Source: Geothrix fuzhouensis
GTDB lineage: Bacteria; Acidobacteriota; Holophagae; Holophagales; Holophagaceae
Direction: 5' to 3'
Assembly: GCF_024609325.1 (NCBI RefSeq)
Contig: NZ_JANHMQ010000002.1
Span: forward strand, 248,001-312,000
Length of the DNA stretch: 64,000 nucleotides
Shown: piece by piece, positions 6,952 to 15,638 of the stretch
Layout: each line of letters starts with the position of its first letter
How positions within the stretch are numbered: the stretch's first letter is position 1
Made by a program: the position numbers and the translations under genes
Notes under the pieces: generated by a model
What the model saw: the letters and a program-made list of their open reading frames with translations, nothing else
Told to the model about the DNA's origin: nothing
Databases searched by the model: none

Positions 6952-8862
6952 TCATCCGGCCTGACTGTGATTGGCAGGCGTCCAGCCGCGCTCATTCAGG
7001 AGCTTCACGCCCTGGATGCGGGTGAGGCGGAAGGCCATCTCCTCCTGGTGAAGGTGGCAGAAGGCCAGCAGGTGGTCCTCCTGGATGGTGCGCGGGGAAA
7101 CCCGCCGCAGCTGCGTGCGATGGGCGGCCGGGGGCAGGTAGGTGAGTTCCACCATGAGGGTGTGGCCCGCCGCGTATTCGAGGATGCGCTGCACCTCCTC
7201 GGCCAGCTGGTCTTCGCCGCCCAGGTGGAGCATGGGGATGCGCCGCTGGACTTCCTGGTAGAGGGCCGGGTCCTCGTCGTGGAGGCGCTGGAGCGCCGAC
7301 CGCACCATCTGCTGCACGGGCTCCAGGTGGTGGTTCATGCCCTTCTCGTCCACGAAGGCGAGCGCGGCCAGGGCCCACAGGTAGAACTTCTCGTCGGCAT
7401 CCACGCTCAGGGCCAGGAAGCGGCCGGGCTTGGGCATGAAGCCCGCCTGCTTGAGCAGGGCATGGGCGTTGCCATCGCCGCGCACTTCCAGCACGGTGTC
7501 GGACAGCGTGGCCAGCTTGAGGGGCGCCAGTTCCGGGCGCAGCTTCAGTTCATCCGCCAGGTGGGCCGTGCGGGCACGCACGAGCCGCACACCCTGGTGA
7601 ACTTCCACTTCGCCCACGCGGCGGGAGAGGTCCTCCAGCAGCTGGAGCAGGGGCTGGGGCAGGGTCTGCGTGGAGGCGCCCAGGCGCTGGCCCAGTTCCT
7701 CAAGAAGCACACCGGCATCAAGCGCGCGCACCAGGGTGGCGTGGCTCACCCGGAAGGTGCCCATGGCATCCAGGGCTTCCACATCCGCCAACTGGGCCAG
7801 CTGAAGCAGCCGATGGGGATTCTGCAGCAGCGGTGTCAGCAACTCCAAGGTGGGCTGGAGGATCATGGGCTGATCAACCTCCAGGGGCTGCCAGTGGGCG
7901 GCGGTGCCCTTCAGATCGCGCAGCAGGTACTCGTGGGCCAAGGCCTCGCCGTGCTCAGAGAGCCGCAGGTGTGCGTAGCCTTCGTCGGCCTGGATGATGC
8001 CCATGCGTCCCAGGAAGGGCAGGAACACACTGCGAGTGCGCTCTTCGTCCAGGGGGTGGAGGGTCTTGAGGAAGGCCAGGAACGGCTGGACGGCAAGGGC
8101 CTGACCGCGGCGCTCCAGCAGGTGCTGCATGAGGAAGTGGCGGTCTTCGGCGGGGGGCATGCCCCAGGCCTTGAGGTCGTGCTCCAGCAGGCTGGCGAAG
8201 GCGCGCTCGGCCACCCACCGGGGCGGATGGCTGGTGACGGCGGGCAGCAGCGTCTCCACGCGCCCTTCGCGGCTCCAGAGCAGGCCCAGGCGGTGCAGGA
8301 GGGTGAACAGCAGGGTGGCATCCTGTTCCTCCTGGAGCATGGCGTTGCGCTGCATGAGCTGGCCCAGTTCCTTTTTCGCGGGCAGGCCACCCTTCAGCAC
8401 GCGCAGACCCGACACGCAGCGCAGGAGGACGCTCGTGAGGGCCAGGGAGAAGCGGAATGGCTCTGCGGCGTGCATTTTCACGCCTTCAGGTGCCTGGAAA
8501 TTCAAGGCGCCGTCGTCGAAGTCGTCGAGTGCGTCGGCCACCCGCTCGGCCACGGCCCAGCCCTCGCCAGCAGGAAGGATCAGCCCCAGTCCGCGGAGCG
8601 TCTCGATCGCCGGCTCGGCGGGAAGGGTGCCCTCGTTCGCCAGATGTTTCAGTGCTACGAGAGAGCCGCTATCCAGGTCGGCCAGGGTATCGGCCAGACG
8701 CTTGTGATCCTCCAGATGGAAGACCATGGTCTTGAGCAGGCGCATCCGGCCATCCGTCTCATCTTCCCAACGAAGGGGGATGGGCAGCCGGCGCCGCTCG
8801 CAAATGGTCCTGAGCTGCTCATCCGAGCAGTTCGAAAGGAGCTGGTAATGGTTAAGTGGCAT
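6952..8862 (-). CDS. Helicase-associated protein with XPB/Ssl2 N-terminal-like domain
   Basis: This 636-residue protein resembles the helicase-associated proteins that accompany bacterial XPB helicases (Helicase_C_3 / XPB-N domain). The recognisable part is the C-terminal half: the segment around L-R-P-E-L-A-P-L-K-L through V-L-E-V-R-G-D-G is the XPB-N-like fold. The last about 80 residues look WYL-like (L-M-V-E-L-T-Y and a late L-A-F-C-H-L-H). The N-terminal half is helical and winged-helix-like. I chose the ATG at 8862 over a GTG at 8898 because the protein then begins MPLNHYQLL without an odd leader. In actinobacteria its counterpart lies beside the XPB helicase; here the helicase is at 15824. 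Confidence 0.6.
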   Translation of the reverse strand: MPLNHYQLLSNCSDEQLRTICERRRLPIPLRWEDETDGRMRLLKTMVFHLEDHKRLADTLADLDSGSLVALKHLANEGTLPAEPAIETLRGLGLILPAGEGWAVAERVADALDDFDDGALNFQAPEGVKMHAAEPFRFSLALTSVLLRCVSGLRVLKGGLPAKKELGQLMQRNAMLQEEQDATLLFTLLHRLGLLWSREGRVETLLPAVTSHPPRWVAERAFASLLEHDLKAWGMPPAEDRHFLMQHLLERRGQALAVQPFLAFLKTLHPLDEERTRSVFLPFLGRMGIIQADEGYAHLRLSEHGEALAHEYLLRDLKGTAAHWQPLEVDQPMILQPTLELLTPLLQNPHRLLQLAQLADVEALDAMGTFRVSHATLVRALDAGVLLEELGQRLGASTQTLPQPLLQLLEDLSRRVGEVEVHQGVRLVRARTAHLADELKLRPELAPLKLATLSDTVLEVRGDGNAHALLKQAGFMPKPGRFLALSVDADEKFYLWALAALAFVDEKGMNHHLEPVQQMVRSALQRLHDEDPALYQEVQRRIPMLHLGGEDQLAEEVQRILEYAAGHTLMVELTYLPPAAHRTQLRRVSPRTIQEDHLLAFCHLHQEEMAFRLTRIQGVKLLNERGWTPANHSQAG

Positions 8863-8974
8863 GGACACCTGAGTACAGATGATCCTGCAGTGTCCCACGG
8901 AACCTCGGAACGCTCACGCGGAAAAAATGCCCGGTATGCCGGGCGCTTTCCCGCGCCGTTGGAAAGTCTTCTGG

Positions 8975-11900
8975 CTAGTCGAGAACCTTGATCTGGGGGC
9001 GGCGTCCCGTGGCGCCGCGGCTGAGGGCCAGGTCGAAGCGCTTCGCCCGGGTTGTGAAGGTCTGGCGACCTCCTGAGAGGATGGCGATGACTTCGCCGGT
9101 ATCCGCGTCGCGGACCAGGGCGGCTGGATGGAGCGTTGCGTCCCAGGTGAGCTGGACCTTGTCTTCCGAGAGGCGCTGAACCTCGGGTGACAGGGCCACG
9201 CCCGCGGTGGCGCCGAGGCTGGCGAGCGTCTTTCCGCCCTTCATGACCCTCAACCCGGCGATGGTGTCCAACGTGGTCGCGTCGATCGGGAGCGCCATGA
9301 CGAAGTGGCTCTCGTGGCCTTTGGGCCAGCAGCCCAGCTCCATGAGTTCGATGGGCGCGGTGAAGACGGCAACGTTCTTCTGGTCCACGCATTCCAGCGC
9401 GTATTCCCCCGTCTTGGCCGCTGTGGATGGGAGTGCCCGGGTCCGGAAGGAGGGGAGGATCTCAACCTCGCCATTGTCGTGGACGATCCCCCGGACGATC
9501 AGGCACTCCTGGGCCGCCGCCTGTTCCCTGGCCTGCGCCTTGGGCAGGGGGGCCTCCCCGGTGCCCACCGTGAGGAAGCCGCCGGTGGCCCCTCGGAAAT
9601 CCAGGATCTTCTTGTAGACGTAGTCGCTGACCCAGTCGGGTGAGCAGTAGCCCATGATGTCCTTGTAGGTGGTCGGTGCTTTCAGCAGACCCGCGGTGGT
9701 GTCGTAGCCCCAGACGCCGATGAGCCCGCCGGCGTAGGGGTAGTTGGGATCGGGGTTGGCGGCGCTTCCGCAGGGGCTGTGCTGCCGGCCCATGTTGTGG
9801 CCGGTCTCGTGGGCGAAGACTTCCGGGAAATTGCCTCCATCCTGATAGCCCGTCTTGTCCCACCCGATGGCGGTGCGGTATTTAAACGGGGTGGTCGGAT
9901 CCGGGGGAACATAACCGACGCCGGCTACGCCAGAGGTGTAGCTGACGTTCAGGGCACCGAAGTAATAGCGATCGGAGGTGCCATCCAGCAGGTGCTTGGC
10001 CGTGAGGTCGCTGAGCAGCGTGTCCCAGCCAGTGCCGTCGTCCTTGAGGGTCACCGAGGAGGTGAAGGTGGCGCCCACGGTGACGTCCACGCCGGCCACG
10101 GGATACATCTGTGCCAGCCGGGCGACCCAGGCGCCCTTGTTGGCCTCGGTGATGTTCCCGGTGCCGGTGGAAAGCGCGACCGGGAAGATGGTGGTCCGGA
10201 AGGTGGGGACGGCGATCCCGCTGAAGCTGCGCACCTGCGCGTTGTTGGTTTTGTCGGCTTCTGGAATGAGGCCGCCCGGGTCGATCTCGGCGCTGATCAG
10301 GTACACCCCTTGGATGATCAGGGTGAGGTCCGTCCCCGGAACGGCCAGGTTCCAGCTGGAGGCAAGGCTGGATTCATCCAGCGAGGTGGGGACACCGGAC
10401 CGGGTGGCGGCGACGACCTTCGGATAGCCCGGAACAGGCACCGCGTTGTTATCCATGACCGAGATCTTCACGGAGGGGGTCGCGGTGTTGGCCTGGTTGG
10501 CCAGCACGAAGGCCCGGATCAGGCCGTCCTTTCCAGCCACGATGGGGACGGATCCGTACAGATCCTGGGTGCTCTGGGTGAGCTGCACGTTCTCCACATG
10601 GAGGTCGAGGGTGGTGCTGGCGGTGTTGACCGTGAAGGTCTGCGTCGACGTCCCGCCCGGAGTGGTGATGACCAGGTTGCCGCTCGTGGCGCCGGCAGGC
10701 ACGGTGAAGGTGAGCTGGGAGGGGCTGAGGCTGGTGGGCTGGATGGTCTGGCCGTTCAAGGTCAGCGTGGTGCCCGGATAGCCCAGGTAGCTGCCCGCGA
10801 TGACCACGGGCGTTCCGATCGGACCCTGGGTCGGATTCACGCCGGTGACGACAGGGACTCCGTAGGTCACGGAGAAGTTCGTGGTGGAAGCGCCCGTGCC
10901 TTGCGCGTTCGAGATCGTGATGGGTGCGTTGCCAATGGCCGCGTTGGCAGGGATCGCGGCCGCCAAACTGGTGCCGTCCGTGAGGGCGATGGTCGCGCCG
11001 GCACCGCCGATGGTCATGCCCGTCAGCCCGAAGAAGTTCATGCCCGAGACCTGGATGACGCCTTCCCCGGCAAGGCCGGAGGTGGGGGTGAAGCTGGAGA
11101 TGATCGGCTTGAGGTCGGCAGCGGGAGCCGCGAGGTTGGCCACGACATCATCGAGCAGGAAGCTGGTGGCGTTCTGGGCGTCCTCCTGGCTCTTGAAGGA
11201 CAGACGGATGACCTGTCCCTTGTAGGGAAGCAGGTCCACGGTATAGGCCGTATAGTCGGCGGCGTTGAGGTTGGTCTTGGTGAGCAGGGTACCCAGAGAG
11301 GTGCCATACGTGTTCAGTGCCTCCACGATGACGGAATCCTTGACTCCCCCTCCCGTGGGTTCGGCGGTGATGATCTTCAGGTAGAAGGTGGCGTTGGCAG
11401 CCTGGGCCGTGGCCGGGATGTAGAGGTCCTGAGTGATCTGATCCGACTGCACCGACCCGTACCCGCCCAGCCAGGCATACTGGGTTCCGCTATGGGGCAC
11501 CACGCCTGTGGAGCCGGTCGAGGCGCCCTGGATGATGCCGGTATCCCCTTTCCAGATGACGGGCGAGGCCTGCTCGAAGCCCGTATTCATGAGCACCTGG
11601 ATGGAGCTGTTGACCGAATAGGAGCTGGCGGAGGTGGCGGTGCCGCCTGGGGTGGTCACCGACAGGGTTCCAGCCGTCAGGCCGGAGGGGGCAGTGGCCT
11701 GGATTTCCGTATCACTGGTGACTGTGAAGTCGGCGGCAAGGGTGCCGTTGAACTGCACCTGCGAGGTGCCCACGAAGTGCGTGCCCGTGAGAGTGACCAC
11801 CGTACCGGCCGTGAGCGCCGTCGGCGTGAAGGCTGTGAGGGTGGGAGCCAGGGCCAAGTCGACCGTGAAGGAGGGGGAGGTGGTGAAGCCAGCGGGTGTG

Positions 11901-12199
11901 GTGACCCGGACAGGCCCTGTGGTGGCACTGCCAGGCACCACGGCGTCGATCTCGGAGGCGCTTACGACCTTGAAGGAGAATGCGGCTCGCCCGTTGAAGG
12001 AGACGGCCGTGGCGCCTAGCAGGTTTGTTCCGGCAAGGGCCACTGTCGCGCCGGGGGCCCCATGGGTGGGATTCACCCCGCTGAGGGTCGGCGCCGTGGA
12101 GGGGGCAGGTGGCGGGGTGGACGAACCACCCCCACCTCCACACGCCAGGAACGTCATTGCTGCCGCAAGGGCGAGGCATCGGATGGGTAGGTGGCGCAT
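8975..12199 (-). CDS. Secreted lipoprotein with TIG/IPT repeats and a zinc metalloprotease domain
   Basis: This 1074-residue protein has a lipoprotein signal ending M-T-F-L-A-C followed by a Gly-rich linker and a Pro-rich stretch. Next come two TIG/IPT immunoglobulin-like repeats (about 35-200), a jelly-roll-like segment (about 205-360), two more TIG repeats (about 365-525) and a CARDB-like segment. A metzincin-type protease domain follows. The motif HETGHNMGRQH supplies the three zinc histidines and the catalytic glutamate, and is followed by S-P-C-G. About 200 more residues follow the protease domain. The start at 12199 has GGAG six bases upstream and places the signal correctly. It is probably a surface protease or adhesin; the substrate is unknown. 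Confidence 0.75.
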   Translation of the reverse strand: MRHLPIRCLALAAAMTFLACGGGGGSSTPPPAPSTAPTLSGVNPTHGAPGATVALAGTNLLGATAVSFNGRAAFSFKVVSASEIDAVVPGSATTGPVRVTTPAGFTTSPSFTVDLALAPTLTAFTPTALTAGTVVTLTGTHFVGTSQVQFNGTLAADFTVTSDTEIQATAPSGLTAGTLSVTTPGGTATSASSYSVNSSIQVLMNTGFEQASPVIWKGDTGIIQGASTGSTGVVPHSGTQYAWLGGYGSVQSDQITQDLYIPATAQAANATFYLKIITAEPTGGGVKDSVIVEALNTYGTSLGTLLTKTNLNAADYTAYTVDLLPYKGQVIRLSFKSQEDAQNATSFLLDDVVANLAAPAADLKPIISSFTPTSGLAGEGVIQVSGMNFFGLTGMTIGGAGATIALTDGTSLAAAIPANAAIGNAPITISNAQGTGASTTNFSVTYGVPVVTGVNPTQGPIGTPVVIAGSYLGYPGTTLTLNGQTIQPTSLSPSQLTFTVPAGATSGNLVITTPGGTSTQTFTVNTASTTLDLHVENVQLTQSTQDLYGSVPIVAGKDGLIRAFVLANQANTATPSVKISVMDNNAVPVPGYPKVVAATRSGVPTSLDESSLASSWNLAVPGTDLTLIIQGVYLISAEIDPGGLIPEADKTNNAQVRSFSGIAVPTFRTTIFPVALSTGTGNITEANKGAWVARLAQMYPVAGVDVTVGATFTSSVTLKDDGTGWDTLLSDLTAKHLLDGTSDRYYFGALNVSYTSGVAGVGYVPPDPTTPFKYRTAIGWDKTGYQDGGNFPEVFAHETGHNMGRQHSPCGSAANPDPNYPYAGGLIGVWGYDTTAGLLKAPTTYKDIMGYCSPDWVSDYVYKKILDFRGATGGFLTVGTGEAPLPKAQAREQAAAQECLIVRGIVHDNGEVEILPSFRTRALPSTAAKTGEYALECVDQKNVAVFTAPIELMELGCWPKGHESHFVMALPIDATTLDTIAGLRVMKGGKTLASLGATAGVALSPEVQRLSEDKVQLTWDATLHPAALVRDADTGEVIAILSGGRQTFTTRAKRFDLALSRGATGRRPQIKVLD

Positions 12200-12331: not shown

Positions 12332-12919
12332 TCACTGGCCGGAGAGGGTGCCCACCGTGATGGTGATGGGCGAGACAAGGGCTCCCGTGCCGTCGAGCAC
12401 CTGGCCCTTGGTGGCGTCAGCGTTAAGACTGACGGTGCCCGAGGGCTGGGAGGCCTTGAGGTCCAGGGCGATGCGCAGCAAGGGGGCATTCAGAGAGACG
12501 GGGGTTCCGGTTCCTTTCTGCGCTGCCGTGACCTGGAGGGTGCCACCGGTGACTTTGCCCCTGAGGATTTGGGGGGCGCTGCCGAGGTTGAAGGCCGTGC
12601 CGTTCTGGACGAAGGTGCCGGCGGTATCCGTGGCCGCGACGTTGGTCCAGGCCACCTTGGCGGGGTCCGCGCTGAAGGTGGCGGTGATGCCGCTGCCCGT
12701 CGCGGACGCTGGTCCCACGAGGTCCAGCACGAGGTGGGTGGAGGTGGAGAGGGGGATGTTCTTTTTAAGCAGGTAGGTGCCCGAGGTGGGGTCAACGTAG
12801 CTGAGGCTCGTGGCCGTGGGTGGCGGTGCGGAGGACCCACCGCCTCCGCCGCCGCAGGCCAGGAAGCCCGTGAGCGCCAGGGCGGCGGAAGCGGAAAGGA
12901 ACTTGGTCATCGGAGTCAT
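12332..12919 (-). CDS. Lipoprotein with a possible cohesin-like domain
   Basis: This 195-residue protein has a lipoprotein signal (T-G-F-L-A-C followed by six glycines) and a Pro-rich linker. One beta-rich domain of about 145 residues follows, with the order expected of cohesins: a G-x-x-A-T-F-S-A-D-P-A-K-V strand, a G-T-A-F-N-L segment, L-L-R-I-A-L-D-L-K-A and a final G-T-V-S-L-N-A-D. The start at 12919 is preceded by GAGGAG at six bases. It follows the dockerin-bearing gene by 10 bases, so they share an operon. The cohesin assignment is tentative, from pattern and context; an unrelated beta-sandwich is possible. Confidence 0.55.
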   Translation of the reverse strand: MTPMTKFLSASAALALTGFLACGGGGGGSSAPPPTATSLSYVDPTSGTYLLKKNIPLSTSTHLVLDLVGPASATGSGITATFSADPAKVAWTNVAATDTAGTFVQNGTAFNLGSAPQILRGKVTGGTLQVTAAQKGTGTPVSLNAPLLRIALDLKASQPSGTVSLNADATKGQVLDGTGALVSPITITVGTLSGQ

Positions 12920-12929
12920 GGTCAGCTCC

Positions 12930-15638
12930 TCACAGGCCAGCGAGCAGGAGGGCGAGGTCCGTGTCATCCACCCTACCGTCGCCATTCAGATCGCAGGTGC
13001 CGTTGGTGGTGCCGTAGTACTTCGCGAAGAAAAGCAGGTCGCGCAGATCCACCACGCCGTCAGCGTTCAGGTCCAGGGCCCCCGCCGTTTTGAGTTCCCA
13101 CACCCCGCGTCCAAAGGTGGCGGCACGCAGCAGGCTGCCGTCCGGGGCTACGTACAGGTCCCGCACGGCGACCAGAGGCAGGTTGCTGCCGAAGCGATTC
13201 CAGGTGGAGCCGCCATTGCCGCTCACATACACGCCAAAATCCGTGCCTGCGTACACCTTGTTGGCGACCAGGGGATCGGCCTTCACCACATGGACCGGAA
13301 TGCCGAAAGGGAAGCCGTTGCTGGCGGTGGCGCTGCCATCGAGGGCCGTCCAGCTGGCGCCACCGTTGGTGCTCTTCCATAGGTGGTTGGCGGTGCTGCT
13401 GGGGGCCACTGATCCCACGTACACCGTCGTGGGGCTGGTGCGGTCGAACTCGATGCAGCTGAGATAGGAGGCGTTTCCCGGCAGGGTTCCGCCCTTGCTC
13501 CAGGAACCGCCGCCGCTGGACGTCAGGTAGACCCGCGCCTGGTTGGCCGCAATGCCCAGTGTGTTCGGATCGCTGGCGGAGGCCGCCAGGTTGCGGATGA
13601 ACAGCTCGGTTGTCGAGGTGGTGGAGGACATGTTCAGTGGCGCCGGCAGGCCACTGGTGCCGAGAGCCGCCCAGCTGGCCCCGAAGCTGGTGCTCTGGTA
13701 GACCTTCCCATTGGTGGACGTGTAGATCACCGCTGGACGGGGCGTATCACCCGGGGCCAGCTTGGGTGCAAAGGGCGCGAGATCCTTATTATTCGCCTCC
13801 GTGATGCCCGAGATGGCTTCATTGAAGGTGCTGCCGCCGTTGGTGCTGCGCCAGATGTCCGTGTAGTAGATGCTGCCCAGCACCTGGGCACCGTCCGCGG
13901 GATGGAAGACCGTCGCGAAGCCGTCACCGCCGATCATGTCCTCGAAGACGCCTTCAGTGCCCGTAAGCGTGCCTCCGGGAGAGGCGGGCTGGCGCAGGCG
14001 GGTGCCGTTGTCCTGGAGACCCAAGGAGATCCTCCACTTCGAATCCGAGGGGTTGGTCGCCGCGGTGGAACCCACGTTGGAGGCCATGTGTGAAGCCAGG
14101 CCTTTGTTGCGGCGGTTGTCCAGGAAGGTGAGGTCAAAGGACGAGGTGGGGATCGTGGCGCGGAAGGGATCCAACACCACGGCCAGGCCGCCGTCGTTGG
14201 CGACATAGAGGGTGGTTCCGGTGGGTGACCAGGCCGTGGCGTGGGAATCCGCATGGGCATAGACGTGGCCGCTGCCGAACCAGTGGGTGAGCTGGACCCA
14301 GTTCACGCCGCCATCGGTCGAGCGGTAGAGGGCGAGGTTGGCCCCGACGAAGATCCGGGATGGGCTGTTGGGATCCACCGCGAGCCCTTGGTTGTACCAG
14401 CCCTGGCCGCCATCGCTGGTCATCTGGGAGCCTGTGCCCTGGAAGAGGCCACCGCTCACCGTGGGGGCCGCCTGCCAGGTCCAGGTCACGCCTTTGTCGA
14501 GGCTCTTCAGGACGCCACGGGCGACCACTGTGCTGCTGGAGTTGGTGGTGTCTTCGAGGATGGCGTAGGCGGTGACCCCATCGTGGGCAGCCGCGATGGT
14601 GATCCGACCCGGCGTGAAACCGAGGGTGGTGCTGCTGGGCAGGGTGGCCTGCGTCCAGGAGGTGCCCGCATCGCTGGAATAGTAGATGGTGCCGGTGCTG
14701 GTGGACCCGCTGGTGGCTTCCACGGAGCACACAAGGTCTGTGCCGGTGACCTTCTGCACCGACCAGACCTGACCCGTGGACGGTCCTCCCGTCGCGGCGA
14801 CGAACGAGGCTCCGCCGTCGGTGGAGACCCGGAGGCCGCTGTTGGTGCCCCAGAGGAGGTGGTTGGCATCGAGGGGCAGGATGGCGTAGGACCGGGTGGC
14901 GGCGCCGAGGCTGGCGGTGGGGGCGGCAGTCCAGGTGGTACCCCCGTCCGTGGTCTTGTAGAAGCCGCGGCCTTCGGCGTCGAAGGCATCGCCAGCGCCC
15001 AGGTAGAGGACGTTGGGATCGGTCGGGCTCATGGCCAGGGCGCCCACGGAGACATTACCTCCGCTGCTGCTGGTGGGCAGGGCGTCGGTGACGGAATACC
15101 AGGTCCAATCGCTGGTCGACGCGGGATCGGCGTTGTCGCAGCGGAAGACGCCGCCGCCGCTGGCGGCGAGGTAGAGCGTGGGGGCCGTGGGATGGGGCAC
15201 AATCGCCACGGGCCGACCGCTGTCGATATCGGGGCTGGTGTTGGTGAGCTGCGAGAAGGGTCCTAGGTTCCTCCAGGTGCCACCCACGCCGGCCGGGCCG
15301 GAGATCAGGGCCGCTGGCAGGGCGGAACCGGTCAGCGGCTGAGCCACAGGAGCTGCGGATCCGCTGATCTGGAGGCGCCGGGGTGACCAGATGCGGGCCT
15401 CTTGCGTGGCCATCCGGTTCTTGTAGTCCAGGTAGTCCGGGCTGGCGAGGCCGCCGAACCAGAAAAGGTTCCAATCCCGGCGCAGGTCTGCCCGGTCATG
15501 CCCGCTGAGGACATGGGAGGTCCTGCGGTAGGGCAGATCCCGGCGCCGCTCACCGGGGTTGCCCTCCTGGGCCGCCAGGCCGGACAGGGCTGCGAACAAG
15601 ATGAGGAGGGAGAGGAATTTGGTGGCCCGGCCGTTCAT
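12930..15638 (-). CDS. Exported Asp-box (BNR/sortilin-type) repeat protein with C-terminal dockerin
   Basis: This 902-residue protein has a signal peptide (about 1-23). The long beta-propeller region carries about ten Asp-box motifs of the form S-x-D-G-G-x-x-W (for example TTDGGTTW, SSDAGTSW, STNGGASW), as in sortilin, BNR and GH74-type propellers. The last about 55 residues contain two calcium-loop repeats, D-L-N-A-D-G-V-V-D and D-L-N-G-D-G-R-V-D-D, the signature of a type I dockerin. The start at 15638 has GGAG upstream. The following gene, 10 bases on, is a lipoprotein that could carry a matching cohesin. The catalytic activity, if any, is unknown. Confidence 0.75.
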   Translation of the reverse strand: MNGRATKFLSLLILFAALSGLAAQEGNPGERRRDLPYRRTSHVLSGHDRADLRRDWNLFWFGGLASPDYLDYKNRMATQEARIWSPRRLQISGSAAPVAQPLTGSALPAALISGPAGVGGTWRNLGPFSQLTNTSPDIDSGRPVAIVPHPTAPTLYLAASGGGVFRCDNADPASTSDWTWYSVTDALPTSSSGGNVSVGALAMSPTDPNVLYLGAGDAFDAEGRGFYKTTDGGTTWTAAPTASLGAATRSYAILPLDANHLLWGTNSGLRVSTDGGASFVAATGGPSTGQVWSVQKVTGTDLVCSVEATSGSTSTGTIYYSSDAGTSWTQATLPSSTTLGFTPGRITIAAAHDGVTAYAILEDTTNSSSTVVARGVLKSLDKGVTWTWQAAPTVSGGLFQGTGSQMTSDGGQGWYNQGLAVDPNSPSRIFVGANLALYRSTDGGVNWVQLTHWFGSGHVYAHADSHATAWSPTGTTLYVANDGGLAVVLDPFRATIPTSSFDLTFLDNRRNKGLASHMASNVGSTAATNPSDSKWRISLGLQDNGTRLRQPASPGGTLTGTEGVFEDMIGGDGFATVFHPADGAQVLGSIYYTDIWRSTNGGSTFNEAISGITEANNKDLAPFAPKLAPGDTPRPAVIYTSTNGKVYQSTSFGASWAALGTSGLPAPLNMSSTTSTTELFIRNLAASASDPNTLGIAANQARVYLTSSGGGSWSKGGTLPGNASYLSCIEFDRTSPTTVYVGSVAPSSTANHLWKSTNGGASWTALDGSATASNGFPFGIPVHVVKADPLVANKVYAGTDFGVYVSGNGGSTWNRFGSNLPLVAVRDLYVAPDGSLLRAATFGRGVWELKTAGALDLNADGVVDLRDLLFFAKYYGTTNGTCDLNGDGRVDDTDLALLLAGL

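Follow-up and report, generated by a model that had tools for sequence, protein, structure and literature searches.

Known systems and the Geothrix locus

Cohesins and dockerins are the assembly modules of the cellulosome. Clostridial cohesin anchors use S-layer homology domains, and in OlpA and OlpC, cell-surface anchor proteins of cellulosomes, a single cohesin can secure an enzyme to the cell directly. Both modules are also known outside cellulosomes, in archaea and bacteria including anaerobic methanotrophic (ANME) archaea and their partner sulphate reducers (PMC9012536, PMC10553843). Here we analysed a 64,000-nucleotide stretch of Geothrix fuzhouensis DNA (assembly GCF_024609325.1, contig NZ_JANHMQ010000002.1, positions 248,001 to 312,000; hereafter the window), in which the gene of a large secreted propeller protein ending in a type I dockerin (the carrier) is directly followed by the gene of a lipoprotein whose single domain is predicted to have a cohesin fold. 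The two genes probably form a dedicated cohesin-dockerin tether, in which a private lipid-anchored cohesin would hold the dockerin of its neighbour on the outer membrane. The features of the pair are the following, those marked AF2 being seen in AlphaFold2 models.

12930..15638 (-), carrier gene: 902-aa secreted Asp-box protein, a putative double propeller, with the dockerin at its C-terminus and a Sec-type signal peptide, MNGRATKFLSLLILFAALSGLAA
13089..15287 (-), propeller region of the carrier: Sortilin-Vps10 / BNR Asp-box repeats (Pfam PF15902, E 1.1e-16; strands in the AF2 model)
12945..13073 (-), type I dockerin module, residues 856-898 (Pfam PF00404; PDB 2y3n_B; AF2 helices)
13038..13073 (-), calcium loop 1, DLNADGVVDLRD (sequence, pattern scan)
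12957..12992 (-), calcium loop 2, DLNGDGRVDDTD (sequence, pattern scan)
12926..12929 (-), GGAG, resembling a ribosome-binding site, in the 10-bp gap and 6 bases ahead of the lipoprotein ATG
12332..12919 (-), lipoprotein gene, 195 aa: signal peptide, lipobox with Cys22, Gly/Ser/Pro linker and one domain of predicted cohesin fold
12335..12784 (-), predicted cohesin-fold domain, residues 46-195 (model residues 16-165; AF2, Foldseek, VIA-align and a profile link to PF00963)

The carrier and its dockerin

The carrier ends with the stop codon TGA at 12932-12930 and the lipoprotein ATG stands at 12919, the gap of 10 bases between them (12929-12920) opening with GGAG. The C-terminus of the carrier matches Pfam Dockerin_1 (PF00404) with an E value of 1.7e-7, its 31.7 bits exceeding the cut-off of 22.9, and this dockerin scores 36.6 in a genome-wide search with the same family. 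Both 12-residue calcium loops are complete in a pattern scan, each being followed by a helix in the AlphaFold2 model of the carrier (residues 865-874 and 892-901), and the closest PDB sequence match of the module is the cellulosomal dockerin 2y3n_B (E 8e-7). At moderate model confidence (predicted local distance difference test score, pLDDT, of 72.9) the predicted carrier fold resembles GH74-type double propellers, which make up all of the Foldseek rows 1-23 with template modelling (TM) scores of 0.41-0.46 to the query. The original prediction, made from the letters of the window, had described a large protein with Asp-box repeats and a two-loop type I dockerin at its end, with a lipoprotein gene 10 bases further on. 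The Sortilin-type propeller repeats found by Pfam, the intact loops together with PF00404 above its cut-off, and the agreement in coordinates, strand and spacing bear this out.

Predicted cohesin fold of the lipoprotein

The signal peptide of the lipoprotein contains the lipobox GFLAC with Cys22, and under a relaxed pattern a lipobox is present in 113 of 115 homologues. Direct sequence and profile searches of the PDB with the lipoprotein found nothing. An AlphaFold2 model of the domain, built from 38 sequences, reaches a mean pLDDT of 94.3 and a predicted TM score of 0.89. With this model as the query in Foldseek against the PDB, cohesins and cohesin complexes fill every one of the best 50 rows, headed by 1qzn (E 8.6e-5). 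VIA-align gives a best Z score of 12.7 to 4u3s, with a root-mean-square deviation of 3.0 over 142 residues, nearly all of its 50 rows being cohesins, non-cellulosomal ones included (2jh2, Z 11.6; 2xdh, Z 10.3), at a sequence identity of ~8-17%. Furthermore, the family profile finds remoter acidobacterial lipoproteins, four of seven of which match the cohesin family PF00963 (best E 1e-6). When the profiles of the lipoprotein family and of this remoter set, stripped of signal peptides and linkers, are compared by hhalign the probability is 94.9 (E 4.4e-8), five column-shuffled controls reaching at most 0.3.

The lipoprotein domain is thus a cohesin by predicted fold, from a divergent sequence family. 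We considered and rejected an unrelated beta domain: the direct sequence searches are empty, but the fold search clearly gives a cohesin. The single cohesin-like beta domain of the original prediction, which was to be dropped if its fold proved unlike cohesin, stands on the side of structure (1qzn and 4u3s, as above), while the other check that had been proposed for it, a hidden Markov model search, stayed silent in both Pfam and NCBIfam.

Pairing across Holophagaceae

The comparison set comprised 77 genomes of the same bacterial family, Holophagaceae, and a dockerin was counted as paired when it lay at most 2.5 kb from a lipoprotein homologue on the same strand. Lipoprotein homologues occur in 66 of these genomes and dockerins in 61. 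Pairing is found for 67 of the 78 dockerins above the Pfam cut-off and for 19 of the 35 weaker matches, with a chance expectation of ~0.14% per dockerin; counted from the other side, a Pfam-visible dockerin lies near 86 of 122 lipoproteins. Both genes are present in 61 genomes, the lipoprotein only in 5, neither in 11 and the dockerin only in none (Fisher p 6.5e-10, a figure which describes the pattern and is no strict probability, kinship among the genomes inflating the raw counts). Dockerins are absent from all 11 genomes that lack the lipoprotein, many of which are incomplete assemblies, and the both-or-neither pattern holds with smaller numbers in genomes at least 90% complete (p 0.009). 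The loci eligible for structure prediction were also scanned for a natural chain joining dockerin and lipoprotein in frame by read-through, and they contain none.

Carriers, gene order and dockerin position

The carriers are otherwise unrelated proteins: Asp-box propellers, peptidases of the subtilase, thermolysin, papain-like and kumamolisin types (classes S8, M4, C1 and S53) and NPCBM/immunoglobulin (Ig) proteins. The dockerin is the sole feature common to them. The arrangement varies as well. In L214-L219 the gene order is reversed, with the carrier after the lipoprotein, and in L231 a single lipoprotein has a dockerin carrier on either side. In genus g8, which has small genomes (L074, L085 and L090), the dockerin lies inside the propeller, ~160 residues before the end, and the lipoprotein is still adjacent. 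These three loci had been taken as counter-examples, namely propellers without a C-terminal dockerin, and were dropped as such when the dockerin was located within the propeller. Likewise, L061, L065, L083, L087, L081 and L097 had been listed as lipoproteins without a partner until a dockerin gene was found downstream. The reversed order, the internal dockerin and the double flank of L231 therefore indicate that the modules, beyond the genes alone, belong together, and a pairing that is kept despite shifting gene order, dockerin position and carrier fits a physical pairing.

A fold alone shows no function, and at the identity to known cohesins given above the domain could in principle bind another ligand, such as a glycan or the surface layer, the two genes then being kept together through a shared substrate. 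This is very unlikely in view of carriers that share nothing but the dockerin, of the lack of dockerins in every lipoprotein-less genome and of a pairing that outlasts rearrangement of both gene order and dockerin position.

The genome of G. fuzhouensis

The genome from which the window comes has two dockerin carriers, the propeller protein and a subtilase, and two single-domain lipoproteins, each pair being adjacent. The second pair (L049 3139-9570, on C2 at ~407.6-414.1 kb) consists of an Ig-rich subtilase of 1949 residues, with a degenerate first dockerin loop, and, 9 bases on, a lipoprotein ~41-45% identical to that of the window.

Dockerin and cohesin being cellulosomal modules, membership in a cellulosome-like multi-enzyme complex comes to mind, but no PF00963 cohesin reaches the cut-off in this genome (best 0.24, on a TIG domain), the dockerin carriers are two and each lipoprotein has one cohesin domain. 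Neither a multi-cohesin scaffoldin nor a set of dockerin-bearing cellulases was found in the genome, and we rejected a cellulosome on these grounds, rating it as extremely improbable. A setting outside any cellulosome, as originally predicted, agrees with the missing scaffoldin and with the small number of carriers.

The proposed tether

The strongest evidence for reading the two genes as a dedicated tether comes from comparative genomics. The identity of the dockerin, the cohesin fold and the lipobox are computed, and the conserved pairing is counted. In the proposed mechanism the carrier would be exported via Sec with its type I dockerin at the C-terminus, and the lipoprotein would be lipidated at Cys22. 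Under the usual sorting rule the Gly that this lipoprotein has at +2 would direct it to the outer membrane. The carrier dockerin would then dock on the lipoprotein cohesin, presumably in a calcium-dependent way like that of known pairs, and the docked carrier would be kept on the outer membrane rather than lost. The cassette would be modular, the same socket family serving across Holophagaceae and the dockerins sitting on unrelated secreted proteins, often peptidases. Binding, its dependence on calcium, the outward-facing location and the benefit of retention are the parts of this scheme that we infer.

Several points weigh against the tether. Besides the kinship among the genomes, the lipoprotein has no significant match in Pfam or NCBIfam, and PF00963 matches neither any of the 38 sequences scanned (the lipoprotein and 37 homologues) nor any lipoprotein homologue across the 77 genomes. 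Many of the lipoproteins with no Pfam-visible dockerin nearby adjoin degenerate dockerin-like tails, some of them heavily so, that Pfam misses. The membrane face of the lipoprotein is not fixed by its sequence. Finally, the strong dockerins of L225-L228 (genus g11; G056, G064 and G073) have no adjoining lipoprotein, and the pairing is therefore not strictly local.

The genomes with these orphan dockerins do carry the lipoprotein at another place, and docking in trans is therefore possible. Together with the L231 lipoprotein between its two carriers, the orphans speak for a general cohesin anchor, in which any carrier could dock on any lipoprotein and adjacency would merely ensure co-expression. 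We regard such an anchor as possible if doubtful, as the near one-to-one adjacency and the matching copy number, including the two separate pairs of G. fuzhouensis, argue against it. In L226-L228 the gene directly after the dockerin gene is homologous to 6952-8898 of the window, as if this were the same chromosomal place from which the lipoprotein gene had been lost. L222 and L229 are weak, untypical dockerin matches with no partner.

The same binding could also take place with the lipoprotein facing the periplasm, the carrier being held inside, for example at a folding or secretion checkpoint or as a protein kept periplasmic. Outer-membrane lipoproteins of well-studied Gram-negatives face inward by default, no surface-export signal was recognised in the lipoprotein sequence, and the Sec signal of the carrier is an ordinary one. 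Carriers elsewhere, however, are large broad-spectrum peptidases (S8, M4, C1, S53), which would usually be extracellular, and we judge retention in the periplasm to be rather unlikely. With such large peptidases as carriers, display on the outside gains in plausibility.

With regard to the family as a whole, it is quite possible, although we hold this only tentatively, that Holophagaceae have a general envelope display. In it the secreted proteins, for the most part peptidases and propellers, would each bear a dockerin and be held by a private lipid-anchored cohesin of a previously unrecognised family, and pair-specific binding would let one cell run several pairs in parallel.

Related loci and the neighbouring gene

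Other loci show related arrangements. In L106-L109 and L111-L115 the carrier tails have mere traces of dockerin loops and the lipoprotein is still adjacent; both L106 carriers, when read through, look M4/thermolysin-like, one of them with a clear HExxH motif. A pair is also present in an acidobacterial genome from a different family (L205), and a thermolysin-like carrier with a degenerate dockerin accompanies a cohesin lipoprotein on a metagenome contig labelled Proteobacteria (L174). Elsewhere in the Acidobacteriota, single-cohesin lipoproteins, some matching PF00963, stand without a dockerin gene in their vicinity (L206-L211), those of L207, L208 and L209 adjoining a peptide-deformylase-like gene. 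In G030:C243:3849-4532 and G031:C403:3428-4636 a PF00963 cohesin and a dockerin lie in one long chain (frames of 1574-1749 aa).

The window has a third gene next to the pair.

8975..12199 (-), third gene of the conserved gene neighbourhood: lipoprotein combining TIG repeats with a peptidase domain of M66/metzincin-like type (HExxHxxGxxH; HETGHNMGRQH)

In 17 Geothrix-like loci a syntenic homologue stands behind the pair, and beyond these the pair was seen without it; the gene is tied to the pair by synteny only.

Comparison with known systems

We came across no account of the pairing for Geothrix or Holophagaceae in the open-access literature; a single paper mentions both Geothrix and dockerin, and it gives domain counts only (PMC5900883). 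Dockerins outside cellulosomes often lack a visible partner; in Geothrix a predicted partner is there, although Pfam and NCBIfam do not see it, and this suggests that other 'orphan' dockerins may have unseen adjoining cohesins. Furthermore, the tether would give a Gram-negative-type bacterium a testable way of retaining secreted peptidases at the envelope, and ~100 natural pairs make up a set for studies of cohesin-dockerin specificity and for orthogonal protein tethers.

The closest described systems are the non-cellulosomal modules of archaea and bacteria, such as those of Archaeoglobus fulgidus (2xdh) and ANME, with which the Geothrix pair shares the predicted cohesin fold (Z 10.3 to 2xdh), a type I-like dockerin, the lack of a multi-cohesin scaffoldin and an organism that is not cellulolytic as far as known. 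In contrast to these, the Holophagaceae cohesin is a stand-alone lipoprotein of a family unseen by Pfam and NCBIfam, and its two-gene pairing is repeated in dozens of genomes with varying carriers. Cellulosomal pairs (2y3n of Bacteroides cellulosolvens, 4u3s of Acetivibrio cellulolyticus) provide the best structural match for the lipoprotein and the best sequence match for the dockerin (2y3n_B), whereas the Geothrix pair comes with no scaffoldin or cellulase set and has one cohesin per anchor, a lipid anchor and a Gram-negative-type cell. The folds of OlpA and OlpC (3ul4, 4dh2) match that of the lipoprotein model with Z scores of 11.2-11.4, but the Geothrix anchor would be a lipidated cysteine, and its partner gene is adjacent. 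In the glycosidase modules of Clostridium perfringens (2jh2, 2w1n), which are alike in having a non-cellulosomal cohesin fold (Z 11.1-11.6), the cohesin lies within the enzyme, while in Geothrix it would be the membrane anchor. With NCBIfam NF041540, the GC-type dockerin domain-anchored proteins, the pair shares the idea that a C-terminal dockerin anchors a secreted protein, although the window dockerin matches it weakly (21.6 bits, below the cut-off of 29). Hence, the kind of system is already known, and it is the stand-alone lipid-anchored cohesin of an unrecognised family, in repeated one-to-one pairs with mostly non-cellulolytic carriers, that appears new within the open-access literature.

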